NCBI RefSeq assembly: GCF_029278565.1
Contig: NZ_CP119559.1
Span: forward strand, 1,302,001-1,366,000
Reading direction: 5' to 3'
Length of the DNA: 64,000 nucleotides
Origin: Haloarcula halophila
GTDB taxonomy: Archaea; Halobacteriota; Halobacteria; Halobacteriales; Haloarculaceae
Shown: in pieces, positions 28,251 to 52,345 of the stretch
Position numbering within the stretch: the first letter of the stretch is position 1
Layout: every line of letters begins with the position of its first letter
Notes under the pieces: model-generated
Told to the model about the DNA's origin: nothing
Databases searched by the model: none
The model's input: the letters and a program-made list of their open reading frames with translations, nothing else
Made by a program: the position numbers and the translations under genes

Positions 28251-30482
28251 ATGAGCAATCGAGGGGGTACCGAGGGAGGAGGGAGACGGTCAGTTCCGTC
28301 GCCGGTTCCGCCCGACGACACCGACGCCTGGTACGCGCCGTCGGTCCGCGAGCAAGACGAACTCTATCCTGGCGTCGTCGTCACCATCCGCTCGCGCGAG
28401 GACGGGTTCGGCTACGAGGTCCGTGAACCGGTCCTCGCTGCCGGGGAAGCCGAGGCACTCGCGACGGTCGAGAGCTATTTCGAGACGGCCGAACGACAGC
28501 GGCCACGGACCAGAGAAGGTGCTGTCGAGCGGATGGAACGGGGATTCGACCCGAAACACCAGCAGGTGATCGACCGGCTCGTCGACTGCTCGCCGGCCGG
28601 CCGTCGCCGCATCGAATACCACGCACTCTGTTCGCTGGCGTGTCTCGGCGAACTGACGCCGTACGCACTGGACGACCGGATCGACGTCGCCGATATCGAC
28701 GACGACGGGGTCGTCGTCCACACCGCCGACTACGCGCCCGCCGAGACCGACCTCGACACCGATCCGTCCTACATCGATCGGTTCACCAGCGAGCGCGTCG
28801 AGCGCCACACCGTCGAGTTTCACGAGTTCGAGATCCCGGTCGTCGTCTACCGCGAACACCTACTGGGGTCGGACCCGTTCACCACGAAATACGCCGTCAG
28901 AGAACCGTCGCTACTGCCCGGCGACGAGACACTCATCAAGGAGTGTAAAGAGCGCATCTGGGAGACAAACGTCGACGGACTCGTCGAGGACCGCGTCGAG
29001 TTCGTCCGCGAGCGTGCCCGATCACTGCTCGCACGACAGTTGACGGTCCGAAACACGACCGAGTGGCTCGATGCGGCCAGATACAGACTGCGGGCCGCCC
29101 TGGCGGAGTTCGACCTGGCGGTCCCACCGGTCGACAGTCGGTTCTCCGACGGCCGCCTCGACGACCTGCTGTACTACGTCCTCCGTGATCTGGTCGGATA
29201 CGGACAACTGACAGTTCCGATCCGTGATCCGACGCTCGAAGACATCGAAGCGAACCGCGTCGGCGAACGGATCAAAGTGCTCCCCCGGGCGGACCTGGGC
29301 CACGACGGCCGGGTCCCGACGAACCTCCAGTTCGACTCCGAACAGGGGTTCGTCAACGTCGTCACCCAGTTGGCGACTGACGACGGGACCGAACTCAACG
29401 CTTCGAACCCGAGTGCGAAGGTCAACGTCGATCCCGACAGCGAAGCCGTCCACGACGCCGACGAGACGGTCCGCTGTGCGGTCGCGCTCCCGACGATCAG
29501 CGAGGGCGGCCCACACATCTCGATCCGCAAGCAGTCAGCCGACGCGATGACACCAGTCGATCTGATCGAGCGGGACTCGCTGCCGACGGAACTGGTCGCG
29601 CTGCTGTGGCTGTTCTATGAATCCCACGGCGTCGTCCTGTTTTCGGGTGCAACCGGTGTCGGGAAGACGACGTTGATGAACGCCCACATGCCGTTCATCC
29701 CCTACCGTGACCGTCCGATCAGTATGGATGAAGGGTCACGGGAGGTCCGGATTCCACACGAAACTGGGGTGTCGCTGACGACACGGGACCACGAGCGCGA
29801 CCACCGGCGCGTGACGATGGCTGACCTGATGACACAATGCAACTACCTCAACCCGGATATCGAGGTTATCGCCGAGATCAACACGCCAGCGTCGTTCGAG
29901 ACGTTCGCAGAGGCGCTCAACACCGGCCACGGCGTCATCGGGACGACACACGCCGACGACATCGAGACGCTCGTCAATCGCAGCATCGAGAAGGGAGTCC
30001 CGACCTATCTGTTGGAAGAGATCGATCTGGTCGTGTTTCCGCGGCATATCGACGGTGACCGCTACGTCGGCGAGGTGGTCGAGTTCGTCGACGAGCCACA
30101 GAGCGGCGACCGGGCCGGCACGATCCGGAAGGACGGCACCGTCCTCCACTACAATACGGTCTGCTGGCGAGAGTCCGACGGGAGCTACGCCGTCGGCTAC
30201 GACCACCCGTCACTCGGCGACGAGGACCGCCAGGTCCGGACCGAGGTGTTCGAACGACTCGGGCGACTCAGAGACGAACCCGTCGAAACCGTCGAGGATC
30301 GGTTCCACCGCCGCCATCGGTACGTCAAGTATCTGGTTCGGGAAGGCTGTCGGGACTTCGACGACCTGTTCGGCGTCCTGGCCGATCTCCAGACCAACGA
30401 GGCAGCGACCGTCGAGCGACTGCGCCGACAGGCGGAGGCGGACGGCGCTGGAGTCGAGACAGGGGTGAGCGATGACGACTGA
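28251..30482 (+). CDS. Type II/IV secretion system ATPase (archaeal PilB/GspE family)
   Basis: A 743-residue cytosolic motor ATPase for a type IV pilus-like system. About 300 residues of N-terminal regulatory sequence precede the core. Walker A is GATGVGKTT (466-473 region). The Walker B region is EVIAEINTPASFETFAEALN (538-556), where typical family members have a GEVRG-like box; the His box THADD (566-570) is present. It overlaps the next gene by 11 bases. In haloarchaea such ATPases pair with a TadC-like membrane protein to assemble adhesion or unknown pili. No flagellin or chemotaxis genes lie nearby, which argues against an archaellum FlaI. Confidence 0.9.
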   Translation: MSNRGGTEGGGRRSVPSPVPPDDTDAWYAPSVREQDELYPGVVVTIRSREDGFGYEVREPVLAAGEAEALATVESYFETAERQRPRTREGAVERMERGFDPKHQQVIDRLVDCSPAGRRRIEYHALCSLACLGELTPYALDDRIDVADIDDDGVVVHTADYAPAETDLDTDPSYIDRFTSERVERHTVEFHEFEIPVVVYREHLLGSDPFTTKYAVREPSLLPGDETLIKECKERIWETNVDGLVEDRVEFVRERARSLLARQLTVRNTTEWLDAARYRLRAALAEFDLAVPPVDSRFSDGRLDDLLYYVLRDLVGYGQLTVPIRDPTLEDIEANRVGERIKVLPRADLGHDGRVPTNLQFDSEQGFVNVVTQLATDDGTELNASNPSAKVNVDPDSEAVHDADETVRCAVALPTISEGGPHISIRKQSADAMTPVDLIERDSLPTELVALLWLFYESHGVVLFSGATGVGKTTLMNAHMPFIPYRDRPISMDEGSREVRIPHETGVSLTTRDHERDHRRVTMADLMTQCNYLNPDIEVIAEINTPASFETFAEALNTGHGVIGTTHADDIETLVNRSIEKGVPTYLLEEIDLVVFPRHIDGDRYVGEVVEFVDEPQSGDRAGTIRKDGTVLHYNTVCWRESDGSYAVGYDHPSLGDEDRQVRTEVFERLGRLRDEPVETVEDRFHRRHRYVKYLVREGCRDFDDLFGVLADLQTNEAATVERLRRQAEADGAGVETGVSDDD

Positions 30483-32358
30483 TGGGACGCTCGGACTGCT
30501 CGACCGAGGATTGTATGCCCTGTTCGGGCATCACGCGGACGATACTCGCCACGTCCGTACGCGAGAGCTGTATCGAGAAGCGAACCCGGACGTCGACTTC
30601 GGTCTGTACGTGGCACGGCTGTACGCACTCTCCTGGATACTCTGTCTGGCGAGTGGGGCGGTGGCCGCATCGGCTGTCGCACTGCTCCCGCCGGCAACCG
30701 TCGACGCGGTCACGACGGCCGGGAGCAACAGCCTCCCGGTACTCGATCGTGTACAGCTGCCCGCAGTCCCGCGTGGAGTCGCTGCCGCCGGTGTCGGGCT
30801 CGTCGTCGGGACCCTCGCACGCTGGGTCGTCTTCAGGCTGGGCGGTCGATACCTCGCCTGGGTCGCCACGGCACGGCGGGCCGACATCGAGTCGACACTG
30901 CCGGGAGCGGTCCGGTACCTCCGCGTCCTCGCTGCGGGGGCACAGGATCAGCGAGCGATGTTGCGAGCGGTCGCCCAACAGGACGCGTACGGCGAGACCG
31001 CCGTCGCGTTCCGACGCGCGCTCAACCGGGCCGCGCTGACCGGGAGCCTCGACGAAGGGTTAGAGCGAGTGGCGAGCGAAACTCCGTCTCGGGACCTCCT
31101 CGCGCCGTTCCTGCTGAAGTTCCGGGAGCACGCGAACCAGAGCGCCGAAGCGCTGGAGGGATATCTGGAGATGGAAGGACGGCTCCTCTCACACCAACAG
31201 AGTCGGCGCCACGAGCGAGCGACGGGGTATCTCGAACTGCTCGCGGAACTGTTCGTCGTCTTGCTGATCCTCCCCGCACTCGTCGTCCTCATCGTGACGG
31301 TGATGAGCGTCCTCGCGCCGGGGCTGTCGAGAGCTGTTTCGACCCCGGTGGGGTCGGTCTCGACACAGACCGTCGTCGTCGCAGGCAGTGCCGTCTTCGT
31401 CCTCGCCGCCGGCGCACTCTCGGCCGCGGTCGTCGTCACGCTCCGGCCACACAACGCGGCAGCACCGTCGTACAGCCGTCCGGAGAACCTCGTCTCGATC
31501 CTGGCGACTGCGCCGTCGAACCCGGCAAGTGCGACGGCCGTCTGTCTCCCGATCGGCGGACCGATCGCAGCCGGGTTGTGGGCGCTGGGGTACGGGCCGT
31601 TGAACGTCGCCATACTCACGTACGCGGCCGTCGGCCTCCCGATCGGAGTGGTCTCGATCCGCCGTGCGAGACGAGACGACGCCAAAGACCGAGAGATACA
31701 GGACTTCGTCCACGCAGTCGCGGGGCACGTGGCACTCGGGCGGCCGTTCCCGGACGCAGTCAAACGTGTCGCACAGGACATCCAACTCGGTGCGCTCGCC
31801 GACGACGTCAGGGCGCTTGCCTTCACGCTGGACCTGGGCGACAGCCCCGCCGACGCCTCGGCGGACCGCCGTGCCGCGGCGCTCGATCAGTTCGTCGACC
31901 GGGTCGGGACGCCGCTGGCCGAGCAGACGGTCGGGCTCGTCGTCGGTGCCCTCGACGCCGGCAGCGACGCCGAGGAGATATTCGAGACGCTCCAGACGGA
32001 GATCGGGAAACTCTATCACCAGCGGAAGGCGCTCCGGTCGGCGCTGCTCGTCTACGTCGCCGTCGGCTGGACGACCGCGCTCCTCGTCGTCTGTATCACC
32101 GTGGCGGTAAACGTCTACGTCCTCGACCGGTTCGCACAGCTGTCGGCGGTCACCGGCGGACAGAGCATCGCGTTGAACCCGAGAGCGATCGATCCTGCCA
32201 GTGCTCGTCGCCGGTTCTATCTCGTCACGCAGGCCACGATGGTCTCCTGTGGCTGGTTCGCTGGAACCGCCAGTCGGGGTGTCTACGAGGCGTTGCTGCA
32301 CTCCAGTCTGCTGGTCGTGTTGGGCTACGTCGTCTACGCTGGGGTGGGACTACTGTGA
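30472..32358 (+). CDS. Type II secretion F-domain membrane protein (PilC/TadC-like)
   Basis: A 628-residue polytopic inner-membrane platform with two GspF-type domains. Each has a cytoplasmic helical part (PGAVRYLRVLAAGAQDQRAM; FVHAVAGHVALGRPFPDAV) followed by hydrophobic segments. The double-domain layout matches haloarchaeal PilC. It overlaps the ATPase start side by 11 bases and the next pilin-like gene by 4, so the order ATPase-platform-pilins is fixed. The platform passes ATPase motion to the growing filament. Confidence 0.88.
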   Translation: MTTDGTLGLLDRGLYALFGHHADDTRHVRTRELYREANPDVDFGLYVARLYALSWILCLASGAVAASAVALLPPATVDAVTTAGSNSLPVLDRVQLPAVPRGVAAAGVGLVVGTLARWVVFRLGGRYLAWVATARRADIESTLPGAVRYLRVLAAGAQDQRAMLRAVAQQDAYGETAVAFRRALNRAALTGSLDEGLERVASETPSRDLLAPFLLKFREHANQSAEALEGYLEMEGRLLSHQQSRRHERATGYLELLAELFVVLLILPALVVLIVTVMSVLAPGLSRAVSTPVGSVSTQTVVVAGSAVFVLAAGALSAAVVVTLRPHNAAAPSYSRPENLVSILATAPSNPASATAVCLPIGGPIAAGLWALGYGPLNVAILTYAAVGLPIGVVSIRRARRDDAKDREIQDFVHAVAGHVALGRPFPDAVKRVAQDIQLGALADDVRALAFTLDLGDSPADASADRRAAALDQFVDRVGTPLAEQTVGLVVGALDAGSDAEEIFETLQTEIGKLYHQRKALRSALLVYVAVGWTTALLVVCITVAVNVYVLDRFAQLSAVTGGQSIALNPRAIDPASARRRFYLVTQATMVSCGWFAGTASRGVYEALLHSSLLVVLGYVVYAGVGLL

Positions 32359-33068
32359 GGCGAGCACAGTCACACGTCGTCGGGGTCGTCCTCCTGTTGG
32401 GGTTGACCCACGTCGCGCTCGGCGGCCTCACCGCGACGGTCGGCAGCATCGTCGACGGACAGACGGCCACGGCCGACGCGACGCGGGTCGCGGATGCGTT
32501 TCAAAACGGGCTAGAACCCAGTGAACGGACCGGCCAGGGGACAACACAGCTCCGATTCACCGACGGACACGTCGGGAGCGCCGAGCGGGAACTACGCGTG
32601 CTAAACGCCAGCGGTGTCGTCCGTGTCGTCCCGATAGACGCGCTCGTCTACACCACGTCAGGCGCCCGAACAGCGTTCGTCGGCGGCGCCGTGGTTCGGG
32701 GTCGACCCGACGAGGCGTGGCTCGTTCGCGAGCCGTCGCTGACCGTCACACGGACGAAAGACACGTTAGTCGTCGGGGCACCACGGCTCAACGCCAGCGG
32801 CGGTGCGGTCGCCGGCGATACCGTGACCGCACGGCTCCGGACGAACGTCAGCCACACTCGGGAGCGGTTCCCCAGGGCCGATTATCGGATCGCGATCGAG
32901 ACGGCGACACCCGAGGCGTTCGGGCGGTACTTCCGCCAGTTGGGACTGGCGACGCGGACCCGCGATATCGACGGTGACGGGACGCCGAGCGTCGTCGCTA
33001 GCGTCGGCGGACGGGAGACCGTCTATCTCGTCGTCCACGACATGCGAACGGAGGTAGCACATGGATAG
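32355..33068 (+). CDS. Pilin-like protein 1 of the operon
   Basis: A 237-residue protein that begins with GTG overlapping the platform stop. The N-terminus reads RRAQSHVVGVVLLLGLTH: two arginines, an Ala-Gln site suited to prepilin peptidase, then one hydrophobic helix, as in the haloarchaeal type IV pilin N-terminal domain. The rest is an extracellular beta-rich domain with several N-x-S/T sites. It is probably the major or a minor pseudopilin. It resembles haloarchaeal DUF7289-type proteins, from memory of such operons. Confidence 0.75.
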   Translation: MRRAQSHVVGVVLLLGLTHVALGGLTATVGSIVDGQTATADATRVADAFQNGLEPSERTGQGTTQLRFTDGHVGSAERELRVLNASGVVRVVPIDALVYTTSGARTAFVGGAVVRGRPDEAWLVREPSLTVTRTKDTLVVGAPRLNASGGAVAGDTVTARLRTNVSHTRERFPRADYRIAIETATPEAFGRYFRQLGLATRTRDIDGDGTPSVVASVGGRETVYLVVHDMRTEVAHG

Positions 33069-33507
33069 TCGTGGACTCAGTACGGTCGTCGAGAAGCTAC
33101 TGGGGCTCGGTATCGTCGTCCTCTACATCGGGCTCCTGACGACGACGTTGTACGGCGGCGTGGTGCCTGAGTATCAGTCCGCAGTGGGGAGTGAACTCGG
33201 AGAGCGGACGCTAGTGCAGTCGGCGGCACGGATCGAAGCGGCGGTGCCACCGCGAGCGCGGACCGTGACCGCCAGCGTCCAGGTCGATCTGCCGGCGACC
33301 ATCGACGGAGCCGCCTACACGATCCGGACAGACGGTGATTCGCTCGTCCTCGACCACCCGGACCCGTCGATCGACGGGCGTGTCCAGCCGGTCCTTCCGA
33401 GCCGGGTCGACAGCCTCGACGGAGCCTGGGAGAGCGGAGAGCAGACGACCGTCAGGGTAACCGGCGGGCGGGGAAACGTGACGGTGACACTGGAGGGGGA
33501 TTCATGA
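33061..33507 (+). CDS. Pilin-like protein 2 of the operon
   Basis: A 148-residue protein with N-terminus MDSRGLSTVVEKLLGLGIVV, matching a short basic leader, Gly-Leu cleavage site and a single helix; a Glu sits in the first turn of the helix (STVVE), as in classical pilins. The remainder is a small beta domain (VTASVQVDLPATIDGAAYTI; TTVRVTGGRGNVTVTLEG). It overlaps the previous gene by eight bases and the next by four. Confidence 0.75.
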   Translation: MDSRGLSTVVEKLLGLGIVVLYIGLLTTTLYGGVVPEYQSAVGSELGERTLVQSAARIEAAVPPRARTVTASVQVDLPATIDGAAYTIRTDGDSLVLDHPDPSIDGRVQPVLPSRVDSLDGAWESGEQTTVRVTGGRGNVTVTLEGDS

Positions 33508-34205
33508 GGGAATCACTGGACAGGCCCGCGGCGGAACGAGCACAGACCTCACTCCCGTCGCTCGCAGTCGCTCTGGTGTTGTTGACCGTCGTAACCGGAC
33601 TGGCACTGGCAGTCGCGGACGGAACGCTTTCCGGACACGATCGAACAGCCGACGAACGGCGACTGGCCGTGACGACTGCCGATCGGCTCGTGGCTCCGGC
33701 GGGACCGCTGGCGGCACGCGCCAACGTCCTCAACGCGACACGGGTCGCCACATTCGACCGGGGACGACTCGTTCGATCGGTTCCGCCGGCGCGGAATACC
33801 ACCGTCGCAGTCTCGCTGAACGGCTCACGGCTGGCAGCGACTGGAACGACGAGCGGGGGAACGACGGTTCGGCGGATCGTCCTCGTCGAGCGTCGTGAGA
33901 CACGGACGGTCACCCCGAACGTAACCGGGAGCGGTTCGGTGACGTTGCCCCGCCGGACCGACAGCGCGACGATCACGGTTTCGACACCGCCTGGGACGGA
34001 ACTCTGGACGGTCAGAGCCGACGAGCGGGTCGTCCTGCACAACCGGAGCGGGCTAAACGGGACCTTCACCGTGTCGCTGGTCCCCTACGAAACGACGGAA
34101 CTGCGTTTCGAGGGAGCCGGAGTGGTCCCAGCAGGCTCGGTGACTGTAAAGTACGCACCGCCCCGGACGACGAAGGCGACGCTGGTGGTGACCGTCGATG
34201 CGTAG
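33504..34205 (+). CDS. Pilin-like protein 3 of the operon
   Basis: A 233-residue protein. A basic leader with ERAQTSLPSLAVALVLLTVV gives an Ala-Gln candidate cleavage site followed by a hydrophobic helix. The large external domain is rich in Thr, Arg and Val with many N-x-T sequons (for example FDRG, NTTVAVSLNGS, NVTGSGS). Overlaps of four and eight bases join it to its neighbours. Confidence 0.75.
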   Translation: MRESLDRPAAERAQTSLPSLAVALVLLTVVTGLALAVADGTLSGHDRTADERRLAVTTADRLVAPAGPLAARANVLNATRVATFDRGRLVRSVPPARNTTVAVSLNGSRLAATGTTSGGTTVRRIVLVERRETRTVTPNVTGSGSVTLPRRTDSATITVSTPPGTELWTVRADERVVLHNRSGLNGTFTVSLVPYETTELRFEGAGVVPAGSVTVKYAPPRTTKATLVVTVDA

Positions 34206-34602
34206 GGGACAGCTACCGCTGTCGGTACTCGAAGTGGCTATCGGCGTCGTGGTGATCCTGAGCGTCACGCTCGGCTTCGCGCTTGGACCACCGGCGGCGG
34301 ACGCCCGCGGCCCACAACTGGAAGCGTACGCTACCGACGTGGCGACGGTACTGGCAAACGAACAGCCACGCCACGGTGGGTCGACACGGCTCCGGGAAGT
34401 CGTCGCGAGCGAGGCAGCGTTCGATCGGGAACGCGGAGCGCTCGAACGACGCGTCGAACGGATTCTCCCCGGAAACGTTCTCTTTCGGATCGAGACACCA
34501 CATGGGAGCGTCGGCCTCGCCCAGCCACGACAGACGGTGACAGGGACGGCTGTCGTCCCGACTGGCGCCGGACAGGTCAGCGTCGAGGTGTGGTACGCGT
34601 GA
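34198..34602 (+). CDS. Pilin-like protein 4 of the operon
   Basis: A 134-residue protein starting MRRGQLPLSVLEVAIGVVVI: two arginines, Gly-Gln cleavage site, then a hydrophobic helix containing a Glu. The external part is short and mixed (VLANEQPRHGGSTRLREVV; VSVEVWYA at the end). It is the smallest of the set and could be a tip or priming pseudopilin. It overlaps neighbours by eight and four bases. Confidence 0.75.
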   Translation: MRRGQLPLSVLEVAIGVVVILSVTLGFALGPPAADARGPQLEAYATDVATVLANEQPRHGGSTRLREVVASEAAFDRERGALERRVERILPGNVLFRIETPHGSVGLAQPRQTVTGTAVVPTGAGQVSVEVWYA

Positions 34603-35117
34603 GCGAACGCGGACAGCTCGTCCTCGTCGCCGCGGTACTGGTCGCGATCGCGATCGCGCTACTGGTGCTTGCGGCGTTACAACTCGGCTATCACGGGGAC
34701 GTCCATGCGACAGCCGACGACGACGATCCGACCGCCGCGACGCTACGCGTCCTCGAACGGTCGGTGCCAGCAGCCAGTCGAGGCATTCCACGGGACTACA
34801 GCTGGTCCCGCCGCAGTGCCGCAGTCAGTGCCGTCCGCGGGACCCTCGCACCGACGCTCGATCGGCTCCGGACAGCAGGCGTCCGGGAGGGCGTAGTTCG
34901 GAACGTGAGCTACAACGAGACGGCCGCGACAGCCTGGCAACGTTCGAACTGTGCCAGCGGTCCGAACCGTGCGTTCGGACCGTGTCGGACCGACCGGGGC
35001 GTCGCTGTCCAGGAGCGCACCGGACGAACCCACGTGTTGGCGGTCGGGTTCGACGTGACAGTCACCACACAGCGGGGTCGGACCGCTGTCACCGTCGTCG
35101 TCCCGGTGACTGGCTGA
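34599..35117 (+). CDS. Pilin-like protein 5 of the operon
   Basis: A 172-residue protein. GTG 34599 (in GTGA with the previous stop) gives VSERGQLVLVAAVLVAIAIA: basic leader, Gly-Gln site and hydrophobic helix. The external domain holds three cysteines in CASGPNRAFGPC and nearby residues, so a disulfide is possible. It is the last gene of the operon; the regulator gene begins 56 bases later. Confidence 0.75.
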   Translation: MSERGQLVLVAAVLVAIAIALLVLAALQLGYHGDVHATADDDDPTAATLRVLERSVPAASRGIPRDYSWSRRSAAVSAVRGTLAPTLDRLRTAGVREGVVRNVSYNETAATAWQRSNCASGPNRAFGPCRTDRGVAVQERTGRTHVLAVGFDVTVTTQRGRTAVTVVVPVTG

Positions 35118-50933: not shown

Positions 50934-50990
50934 CCCGTCGACCCCCGACCCCCACCTTCTCCGTATTTCGACCGATCAGCGGCCGCACTC

Positions 50991-52271
50991 TCAGGCGACG
51001 CCCGTCCCAGCGTAGCCGTCGATCTCGTCACCGTCCGTATCGTTCAGGAACTCGATATCGATGGTGCCACTGTCGATGTCGTCGAGGTACTTGATGTCGC
51101 TGCTGCTTTCCTCCAAGTAGACCAGTTCCGGGTTCCCGTCGCCGTCGACATCGGCGGCAGTCGCAGTCGCCTTCATCGCCGACGGTGTCGACCCGCCACT
51201 CACGTCGCTACTGCCGATCTCGTCCCCGCTCGTGTCGTTGGTGAGGACGACATCGTTCCCGCCGTCGACGCTGGCGACCCGGGGGGTCCCGTCGCCGTCG
51301 AAGTCCGCCATCGTGCCGGCACCGATGCCGGTACTGGAACCGAGGCTCGTCGACATACTGTGAACACTGCCACCGGGTTCCAGATACTGGAGCGTCTGAC
51401 TGCCGTCGGCGAAGACGAGTTCGTCGGTCCCGTCACCGTCGATGTCACCGGGCCCGACGACCGCGTTCGCGCCGTCACCGCCTGGATCGGTTGCGACGAC
51501 GGTCACGCCGCTACTGGGTGTCGAGCGGTAGATCGCCGACGGACTCGTGTCGTTGACGAAAAACACCGACGGCGGGCTCCCGTTCCAAGAGCCAGTGGCC
51601 AGCCGCGTCTTGTCCTCCGTCCCGTCGGGCACGGCTGAGTTGGTCGTGACGGTCGTCACGTCTCCCGTCGCGTCGACGAGTTTGACCGCGCCGCTGCTGT
51701 TGACGTACGGGACCCCGGGTGCGCCGTCGCCGGTGACGTCTGCCTTTGGTGGGCCGATGGCTTCGACGTCGCTGGCGTTCGGGACAACGCTGACGTTGCC
51801 GCCGTCGCCGGAGATCGTGGTGATCCCAGTCGCGTTCCCCGTGAAGACGGTTCCACCGGGGAACCGACCGGACGCGATGATCTCGGCGATATCGAACCGC
51901 GCGAGGATATACGAAGAGGGTTCGCCCTTGGACTCGGTCCAGACGATCCGTAGCGTCTCGTCCTGGGGGAAGACGACGACCGACTGGCCGGCCGCCAGCG
52001 TCCGACCGTGTAACACGTCGGGGTCGGCGACGCCACGGAGCGTGACCCGGTCACCGTCGATCTCCGGTCCGGCCTCGTGGACGAGTTCGTAGGCGCCGTC
52101 GGTCCGTTCGAGGTCGAAGGCCGTCTCCGGGGCGGGCGTCTGTTCGTCGGTCAACTGGAAGACGAACACCGACGAGAGCCCGACCAGCAGGACCACGATA
52201 CCGAGCAGGAGAACGCCGCCGACGACCGGCGAGACGCCACGCTCACCGTTGGAAGACGGCCCGGAGACCAT
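50991..52271 (-). CDS. Secreted pilin-like protein with FG-GAP-like repeats
   Basis: A 426-residue protein. The N-terminus NGERGVSPVVGGVLLLGIVV then VLLVGLSSVFVF is a haloarchaeal type IV pilin signature (Arg-Gly cleavage site, hydrophobic helix). The external part contains at least four repeats with a calcium-loop pattern: ADVTGDGAPGVPYV, GDIDGDGTDELVF, ADFDGDGTPRVASV and ADVDGDGNPELVYL, as in FG-GAP/integrin beta-propellers. ATG 52271 (MVSGPSSNGERG) is chosen. It is convergent with ftsZ2 and 74 bases downstream of ncsA. It may be an adhesin-type filament subunit. Confidence 0.78.
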   Translation of the reverse strand: MVSGPSSNGERGVSPVVGGVLLLGIVVLLVGLSSVFVFQLTDEQTPAPETAFDLERTDGAYELVHEAGPEIDGDRVTLRGVADPDVLHGRTLAAGQSVVVFPQDETLRIVWTESKGEPSSYILARFDIAEIIASGRFPGGTVFTGNATGITTISGDGGNVSVVPNASDVEAIGPPKADVTGDGAPGVPYVNSSGAVKLVDATGDVTTVTTNSAVPDGTEDKTRLATGSWNGSPPSVFFVNDTSPSAIYRSTPSSGVTVVATDPGGDGANAVVGPGDIDGDGTDELVFADGSQTLQYLEPGGSVHSMSTSLGSSTGIGAGTMADFDGDGTPRVASVDGGNDVVLTNDTSGDEIGSSDVSGGSTPSAMKATATAADVDGDGNPELVYLEESSSDIKYLDDIDSGTIDIEFLNDTDGDEIDGYAGTGVA

Positions 52272-52345
52272 CGTAACAGCGAGACGATAGCACTCGGACA
52301 CTCATATTAGCTGCGGGACAGTATCGGAGTTGACAACGGAGCGGC

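Follow-up and report, generated by a model that had tools for sequence, protein, structure and literature searches.

The window analysed here, a stretch of 64,000 nucleotides from the Haloarcula halophila genome (contig NZ_CP119559.1, positions 1,302,001 to 1,366,000), carries between ftsZ1 and ncsA a gene whose product joins an archaeal type IV pilin module to a predicted C-terminal beta-propeller. A sequence-only reading of this DNA had placed an open reading frame on the minus strand at 50991-52271, and both its coordinates and its strand are correct; it encodes 426 amino acids. The gene and the features of its product are given below.

50991..52271, minus strand: pilin-propeller gene, 426 amino acids plus stop, with the ATG at 52271 and the stop at 50991
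52236..52271, minus strand: class III leader MVSGPSSNGERG, with a predicted prepilin-peptidase cut between G12 and V13
52164..52235, minus strand: hydrophobic N-terminal helix of the mature pilin, residues 13-36 (PF07790; helix 15-36 in the model)
51870..52124, minus strand: putative globular beta module of the pilin, residues 50-134 (strands of the model, low confidence)
50994..51854, minus strand: predicted VCBS/FG-GAP beta-propeller, residues 140-426 (PF13517; model pTM 0.64; PDB propellers)
51723..51740, minus strand: metal-type loop 1, DVTGDG, residues 178-183 (from the sequence)
51579..51593, minus strand: degenerate loop 2, GSWNG, residues 227-231 (from alignments; DxDxDG-like in the related loci L039 and L040)
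51429..51446, minus strand: metal-type loop 3, DIDGDG, residues 276-281 (from the sequence)
51288..51305, minus strand: metal-type loop 4, DFDGDG, residues 323-328 (from the sequence)
51135..51152, minus strand: metal-type loop 5, DVDGDG, residues 374-379 (from the sequence)
50994..51008, minus strand: C-terminal GTGVA, residues 422-426, proposed closing strand of a split sixth blade

Purifying selection acts on the intact gene: dN is 0.10 and dS 0.49 relative to the nearest ortholog, with both halves similarly constrained. A pseudogene or a miscalled frame can be ruled out, since the frame is open in all orthologs and dN is lower than dS. As for alternative starts, a GTG lies 10 codons upstream, but an ATG is found 11-14 codons before the SPVVG motif in 6/6 orthologs. 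A proviral origin of the protein was also rejected, as two scans of viral contigs gave no relative confirmed by tblastn. Acidic residues outnumber basic ones in the protein by 66 to 17, cysteine is absent, and such an acidic excess is usual in the proteins of halophiles. The sequence contains eight N-glycosylation sequons, all at residue 146 or later.

Residues 1-12 form a short leader ending in ERG, which is followed by VSPVVGG and a hydrophobic stretch (GERG/VSPVVG, the slash marking the predicted cut). According to PMC4371748, the archaeal prepilin peptidase cuts before the hydrophobic stretch and requires a charged residue at position -2 and G, A or S at -1. Here, the residues are R at -2 and G at -1; in the alignment of six orthologs, R11 (-2) and SPVVG are invariant, and -1 is always G, A or S. 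The family searches point the same way, with a Pilin_N match (PF07790) over residues 11-77 (E 2.6e-11, 44.6 bits for a Pfam cut-off of 25.2) and an NCBIfam match above cut-off to TIGR02537, arch_flag_Nterm (E 8.3e-7). The type IV pilin signal proposed from the sequence is, thus, upheld at the level of prediction, the leader appearing to be a substrate of prepilin peptidase and not of signal peptidase I. DUF7289 and DUF7266, two of the pilin-like families in the window's pilus cluster, gave Pfam matches below cut-off, and no bacterial N-methylation family (IPR012902-type leader) was found among the Pfam matches at E 1 or better. A closely similar pilin module carries other C-terminal domains at three loci (L008, L010, and L011). 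In these proteins, from genomes G002, G034, and G037, respectively, the propeller is replaced by a C-terminal bactofilin-like repeat part that scores below the Pfam cut-off.

The C-terminal part of the protein matches FG-GAP_3 (PF13517) in three stretches, above cut-off (E 1.2e-11). VCBS propellers bear a DxDxDG motif in the A-B loop (PMC8023676). The four DxDGDG-type repeats announced in the sequence-only reading amount to three strict DxDGDG motifs (at residues 276, 323, and 374), the fourth being the DVTGDG at residue 178. Three or more DxDGDG motifs occurred in 0/20,000 shuffles of the protein (mean 0.009), which, together with the PF13517 match, rules out chance repeats in an acidic halophile protein.

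Structure prediction relied on an AlphaFold2 alignment of two rows only, the window sequence and a homolog from Halorarius halobius (L079, 44% identity). From these two sequences, the full-length model is poor (pLDDT 51.5, pTM 0.49), and the propeller-only model is of moderate confidence (pTM 0.64, mean pLDDT 58.5). For both models, the top Foldseek matches in the PDB are mostly propellers, and VIA-align superposed the model on PDB propellers with Z-scores of up to 17.6 (244 residues within model positions 3-291, 3.5 A). The propeller fold is, therefore, a supported prediction, and on this point the predicted structure agrees with what had been read from the sequence. Besides a three-stranded group at its N-terminus, the model has five groups with three or four strands each. 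A six-bladed ring, in which the C-terminal GTGVA strand would join the N-terminal three, may be inferred from this arrangement; G424 is invariant and the relatives end alike, and the blade count stays an inference because the model assigns no strand to GTGVA and leaves the closing strand unresolved.

Some VCBS propellers are enzymes, for example, aldos-2-ulose dehydratase (PMC8023676), and the protein could, in principle, be an enzyme that a pilin stalk displays outside the cell. This seems very improbable, as the Pfam and NCBIfam matches at E 1 or better include no enzyme family, and a sequence search of the PDB with the propeller profile returned only two chains at E 0.01, both weak matches.

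In the genome as a whole, 18 Pilin_N matches score above cut-off, and no FG-GAP_3 protein other than the pilin-propeller protein was detected. There is a single Peptidase_A24 above cut-off, and seven of the eight T2SSE matches exceed theirs. As had been pointed out, the gene adjoins ncsA and is remote from the pilus operon: some 16 kb separate it from the pilus cluster of the window (28251-35117), which encodes T2SSE, T2SSF, DUF7289, DUF7266, DUF7263, DUF7262, and DUF7261 proteins. In haloarchaea, solitary pilins are known to work with pilus machines in trans. The same genome also encodes a long pilin-type protein (L075, G000:C1:686344-686553) in a frame of 515 amino acids, with the leader RAQSEVVG and, by eye, a TP-rich linker and a PKD-like part. 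Separately, two Pilin_N matches near 26-42 kb of the contig G000:C1 recur with equal scores near 3013-3029 kb, about 2,986,686 bases away, so that the two ends of the contig may overlap untrimmed or be duplicated.

The main rival to a pilus function draws in part on the solitary position of the gene. Like the sugar-binding bindosome proteins of Sulfolobus, the protein could be anchored in the membrane as a surface receptor or binding protein, with its class III leader employed outside any filament. Class III leaders do serve archaeal surface binding proteins other than pilins (PMC4371748), and the head is bulky, exceeding the pilin module in size. Nevertheless, we judge this rather unlikely, given that the protein retains a pilin beta module besides the leader and that its relatives anchor the propeller through subunits of filament systems.

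Among the 32 genomes of the genus, seven contain matches at E 1e-40; six of these are full-length and one (G024) consists of the propeller only. The five full-length orthologs outside the window's genome (G020, G014, G025, G003, and G021) all have the same position as the window gene, with ftsZ1 on one side and ncsA on the other. The same architecture in this slot of five other genomes, and again in G199, G404, and Halorarius halobius, rules out a recent and unique fusion. Where ftsZ1 and ncsA are on one contig (31 genus genomes), the pilin-propeller gene separates them in six cases, the junction is empty in 19 (61-152 bases), and it holds other inserts of about 490-2230 bases in the remaining 6/31 (G029, G001, G026, G022, G002, and G010). 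This junction, situated between housekeeping genes (50934-52345 in the window; L042-L047), hence takes varied inserts across the genus. The insert in G001, G026, and G022 is presumably a Tat-signal protein resembling DUF4397, and that of G029 is what we take to be a dehydratase-like open reading frame. The distant orthologs are 47-53% identical to the pilin-propeller protein, whereas the flanking genes are 82-92% (ncsA) and 93-97% (ftsZ1) identical across the genus. The gene is, thus, conserved yet fast-changing, as would be expected of a surface-exposed head.

Across the class, the propeller profile (A2) had matches at E 1e-10 in 58 of 391 genomes. With 80 fetched regions and the loci collected earlier, 98 open reading frames (ORFs) with the propeller domain were gathered; a G007 fragment (127 amino acids, below the length filter) and a G104 fragment were set aside. 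In one of the searches, the bacterial and other matches proved to be generic FG-GAP proteins at 23 of 24 loci and were excluded. A propeller relative about 32% identical is encoded on plasmid pSR84 of the halophilic bacterium Salinibacter ruber M8 (L216), where it is annotated as a hypothetical protein, and it suggests exchange between domains. The pairing of pilin signal and propeller had been called unusual: it is rare within this genome, but it recurs in haloarchaea, where the propeller is found on several anchors.

The position of the propeller was determined for 85 of the 98 ORFs. It ends at most 60 residues from the C-terminus in 59/85, and in the other 26 it is N-terminal in a longer protein, often directly after a secretion-type signal. 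When class III leaders were called by a crude dipeptide rule in the same 85 ORFs (13 being skipped), these two classes did not separate: 34 of 46 C-terminal-propeller ORFs against 13 of 26 N-terminal ones agree with the rule (p 0.07), or 34/59 against 13/26 once the weak set L201-L211 is included (p 0.64).

The anchors were scanned in the window gene and 52 C-terminal-propeller ORFs (n = 53), leaving aside four ORFs with a short upstream part, the weak set L201-L211, and those in which the propeller is followed by over 60 residues. The Pfam matches were Pilin_N in 10/53, DUF7261 in nine, DUF7289 in six, Arch_flagellin in five, and DUF7266 in eight, of which three are true ones judging by the leader. 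The NCBIfam matches were arch_flag_Nterm (10/53), ArlG and ArlF (five each), TafC (four), and TafE (two). Thirteen ORFs share a 'QxGA' leader and have no good family match; a DUF7289 label for them was dropped, as 0/6 checked singly reached E 0.001, and the six DUF7289 matches of the scan are left unassigned. Three ORFs share an 'SHGA' leader and are likewise unassigned, the one that was checked having no family match. The proteins L142, L146, L185, and L188 carry the propeller on parts that distantly resemble the fimbrial subunits TafC/TafE, far below the curated cut-offs.

Four of the fusions (L153, L159, L166, and L172) exceed the ArlG cut-off over the whole profile (132-160 bits for a cut-off of 110), and an ArlF-like one (L189) falls slightly below its own (103.5 for 110 bits). 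In G249 (L220), the ArlG-propeller gene has an archaellin gene as its neighbor, and ArlH, ArlF, and a normal ArlG are encoded in the same stretch; in G248 (L218), its neighbor is again an archaellin gene, and normal copies of ArlG and ArlF are found within a few kilobases. By eye, no archaellin, ArlF, or ArlG neighbors of the ArlG-propeller genes were seen in G261 and G272. Such fusions, four of them above the ArlG cut-off and two beside archaellin, lend some weight to another reading of the window protein, since S-layer binding by ArlF is known from Sulfolobus (PMC8667602). The propeller would then grip the lattice of the cell's own S-layer and fix a short pilin stalk there, as proposed for the stator proteins ArlF and ArlG. 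For the window protein we regard this as improbable: in ArlF, it is the sandwich, and not a propeller, for which S-layer binding has been demonstrated, and the window protein lacks an archaellum context.

A tree of 80 propellers falling into nine anchor classes requires 16 anchor changes, for a least possible number of eight and a mean of 46.5 after shuffling, a count that depends on our own labelling, as the SHGA, QxGA, and TasA-like labels enter it. Anchors cluster on the tree, yet they have changed several times. The clearest change is that of L036, whose leader is of the DUF7261 type (below the Pfam cut-off) and whose propeller is 51% identical to that of the window protein; it is placed among Pilin_N proteins, with a branch support of only 83. 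A tentative extension, which we hold to be possible and no stronger than that, is that one propeller family serves as an interchangeable haloarchaeal head, grafted repeatedly onto pilins, minor-pilin-like proteins, ArlG/ArlF, and fimbrial-like subunits. These heads might share a class of ligand, for instance the glycoprotein of the S-layer or the glycans on it, and the window gene would be the pilus version.

Taken together, the evidence favors, with moderate confidence, a modular minor type IV pilin with a binding head. The argument combines Pilin_N and arch_flag_Nterm matches above their cut-offs with a leader pattern kept in six orthologs, and the one Peptidase_A24 with the seven T2SSE-type ATPases above cut-off in the genome. 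It also draws on the C-terminal propeller, the purifying selection, the divergence, and the sequons that all lie from residue 146 on, as well as on the like propeller found at the C-termini of several filament-subunit families, with its anchor changes on the tree. Finally, there is a precedent in the bacterial PilX2, a minor pilin that ends in a propeller (PMC12206443). Against this reading, the gene is not beside pilus genes, class III leaders are also found on archaeal binding proteins without pili (PMC4371748), the dipeptide rule does not separate the propeller classes, and the model derives from two sequences.

If the protein is such a modular minor pilin, the single PibD-type peptidase of the genome would cut after RG, and the pilin helix would either sit in the membrane or be packed into a type IV filament by a pilus ATPase acting in trans. 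The pilin beta module would serve as a stalk, presenting the propeller as a head on the surface or the tip of the filament. Metal in the A-B loops may stiffen the propeller, which is probably a sticky head on the cell surface. Its ligand could be a particle, a component of the cell's own envelope, or, on another cell, a glycan or an S-layer protein.

This interpretation carries the modular-pilin idea, documented in bacteria, over to archaea, and suggests a way in which haloarchaeal filaments may gain binding specificity, through head swapping. The ArlG-propeller fusions offer a way to test how the archaellum stator is anchored. Should the ligand be common to all, a single domain could serve as the probe for pilus adhesion, stator anchoring, and fimbriae.

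Modular pilins have been described in bacteria, in a census that rests on the bacterial IPR012902 leader (Raynaud 2021, PMC8179133), and are also named there by PMC9934059 and PMC10191384. The term archaea was not found in the main text of PMC8179133, nor 'propeller' or 'FG-GAP' in that of PMC4858521, a census of archaeal type IV pilus systems, and the listings of open-licence papers that were searched yielded no description of this propeller fused to an archaeal pilin or to ArlG. Like PilB and PilC of Streptococcus sanguinis (PMC8179133), which bear a functional C-terminal module on a pilin module with a class III leader, the window protein has its non-pilin module C-terminal to the pilin module. 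Its leader is, however, of the archaeal Pilin_N type instead of IPR012902, and its module is a VCBS propeller. PilY1/PilC tip adhesins are also propellers presented by type IV pili, but PilY1 is a separate, non-pilin tip protein, while pilin and propeller here form one chain; the PilC/PilY1 family (IPR008707) was absent from the Pfam matches of the protein at E 1 or better. PVL lectins and alpha-integrins share with it the PF13517 repeats and the DxDxDG A-B loop, and have seven blades where six are proposed here (PMC8023676). The archaellum stator proteins ArlG and ArlF are pilin-derived and, in some haloarchaea, fused to the same propeller family; the window protein itself is a Pilin_N protein and not an ArlG or ArlF. 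The Saccharibacterium PilX2 is a minor pilin whose C-terminal beta-propeller is a seven-bladed RCC1 domain and which is needed for the function of its pilus (PMC12206443); this bacterial protein has no predicted PilD leader, whereas the window protein combines an FG-GAP/VCBS propeller with a clear class III leader. Modular pilins and one bacterial pilin-propeller fusion are, thus, already known, and the archaeal VCBS/FG-GAP version appears to be new.
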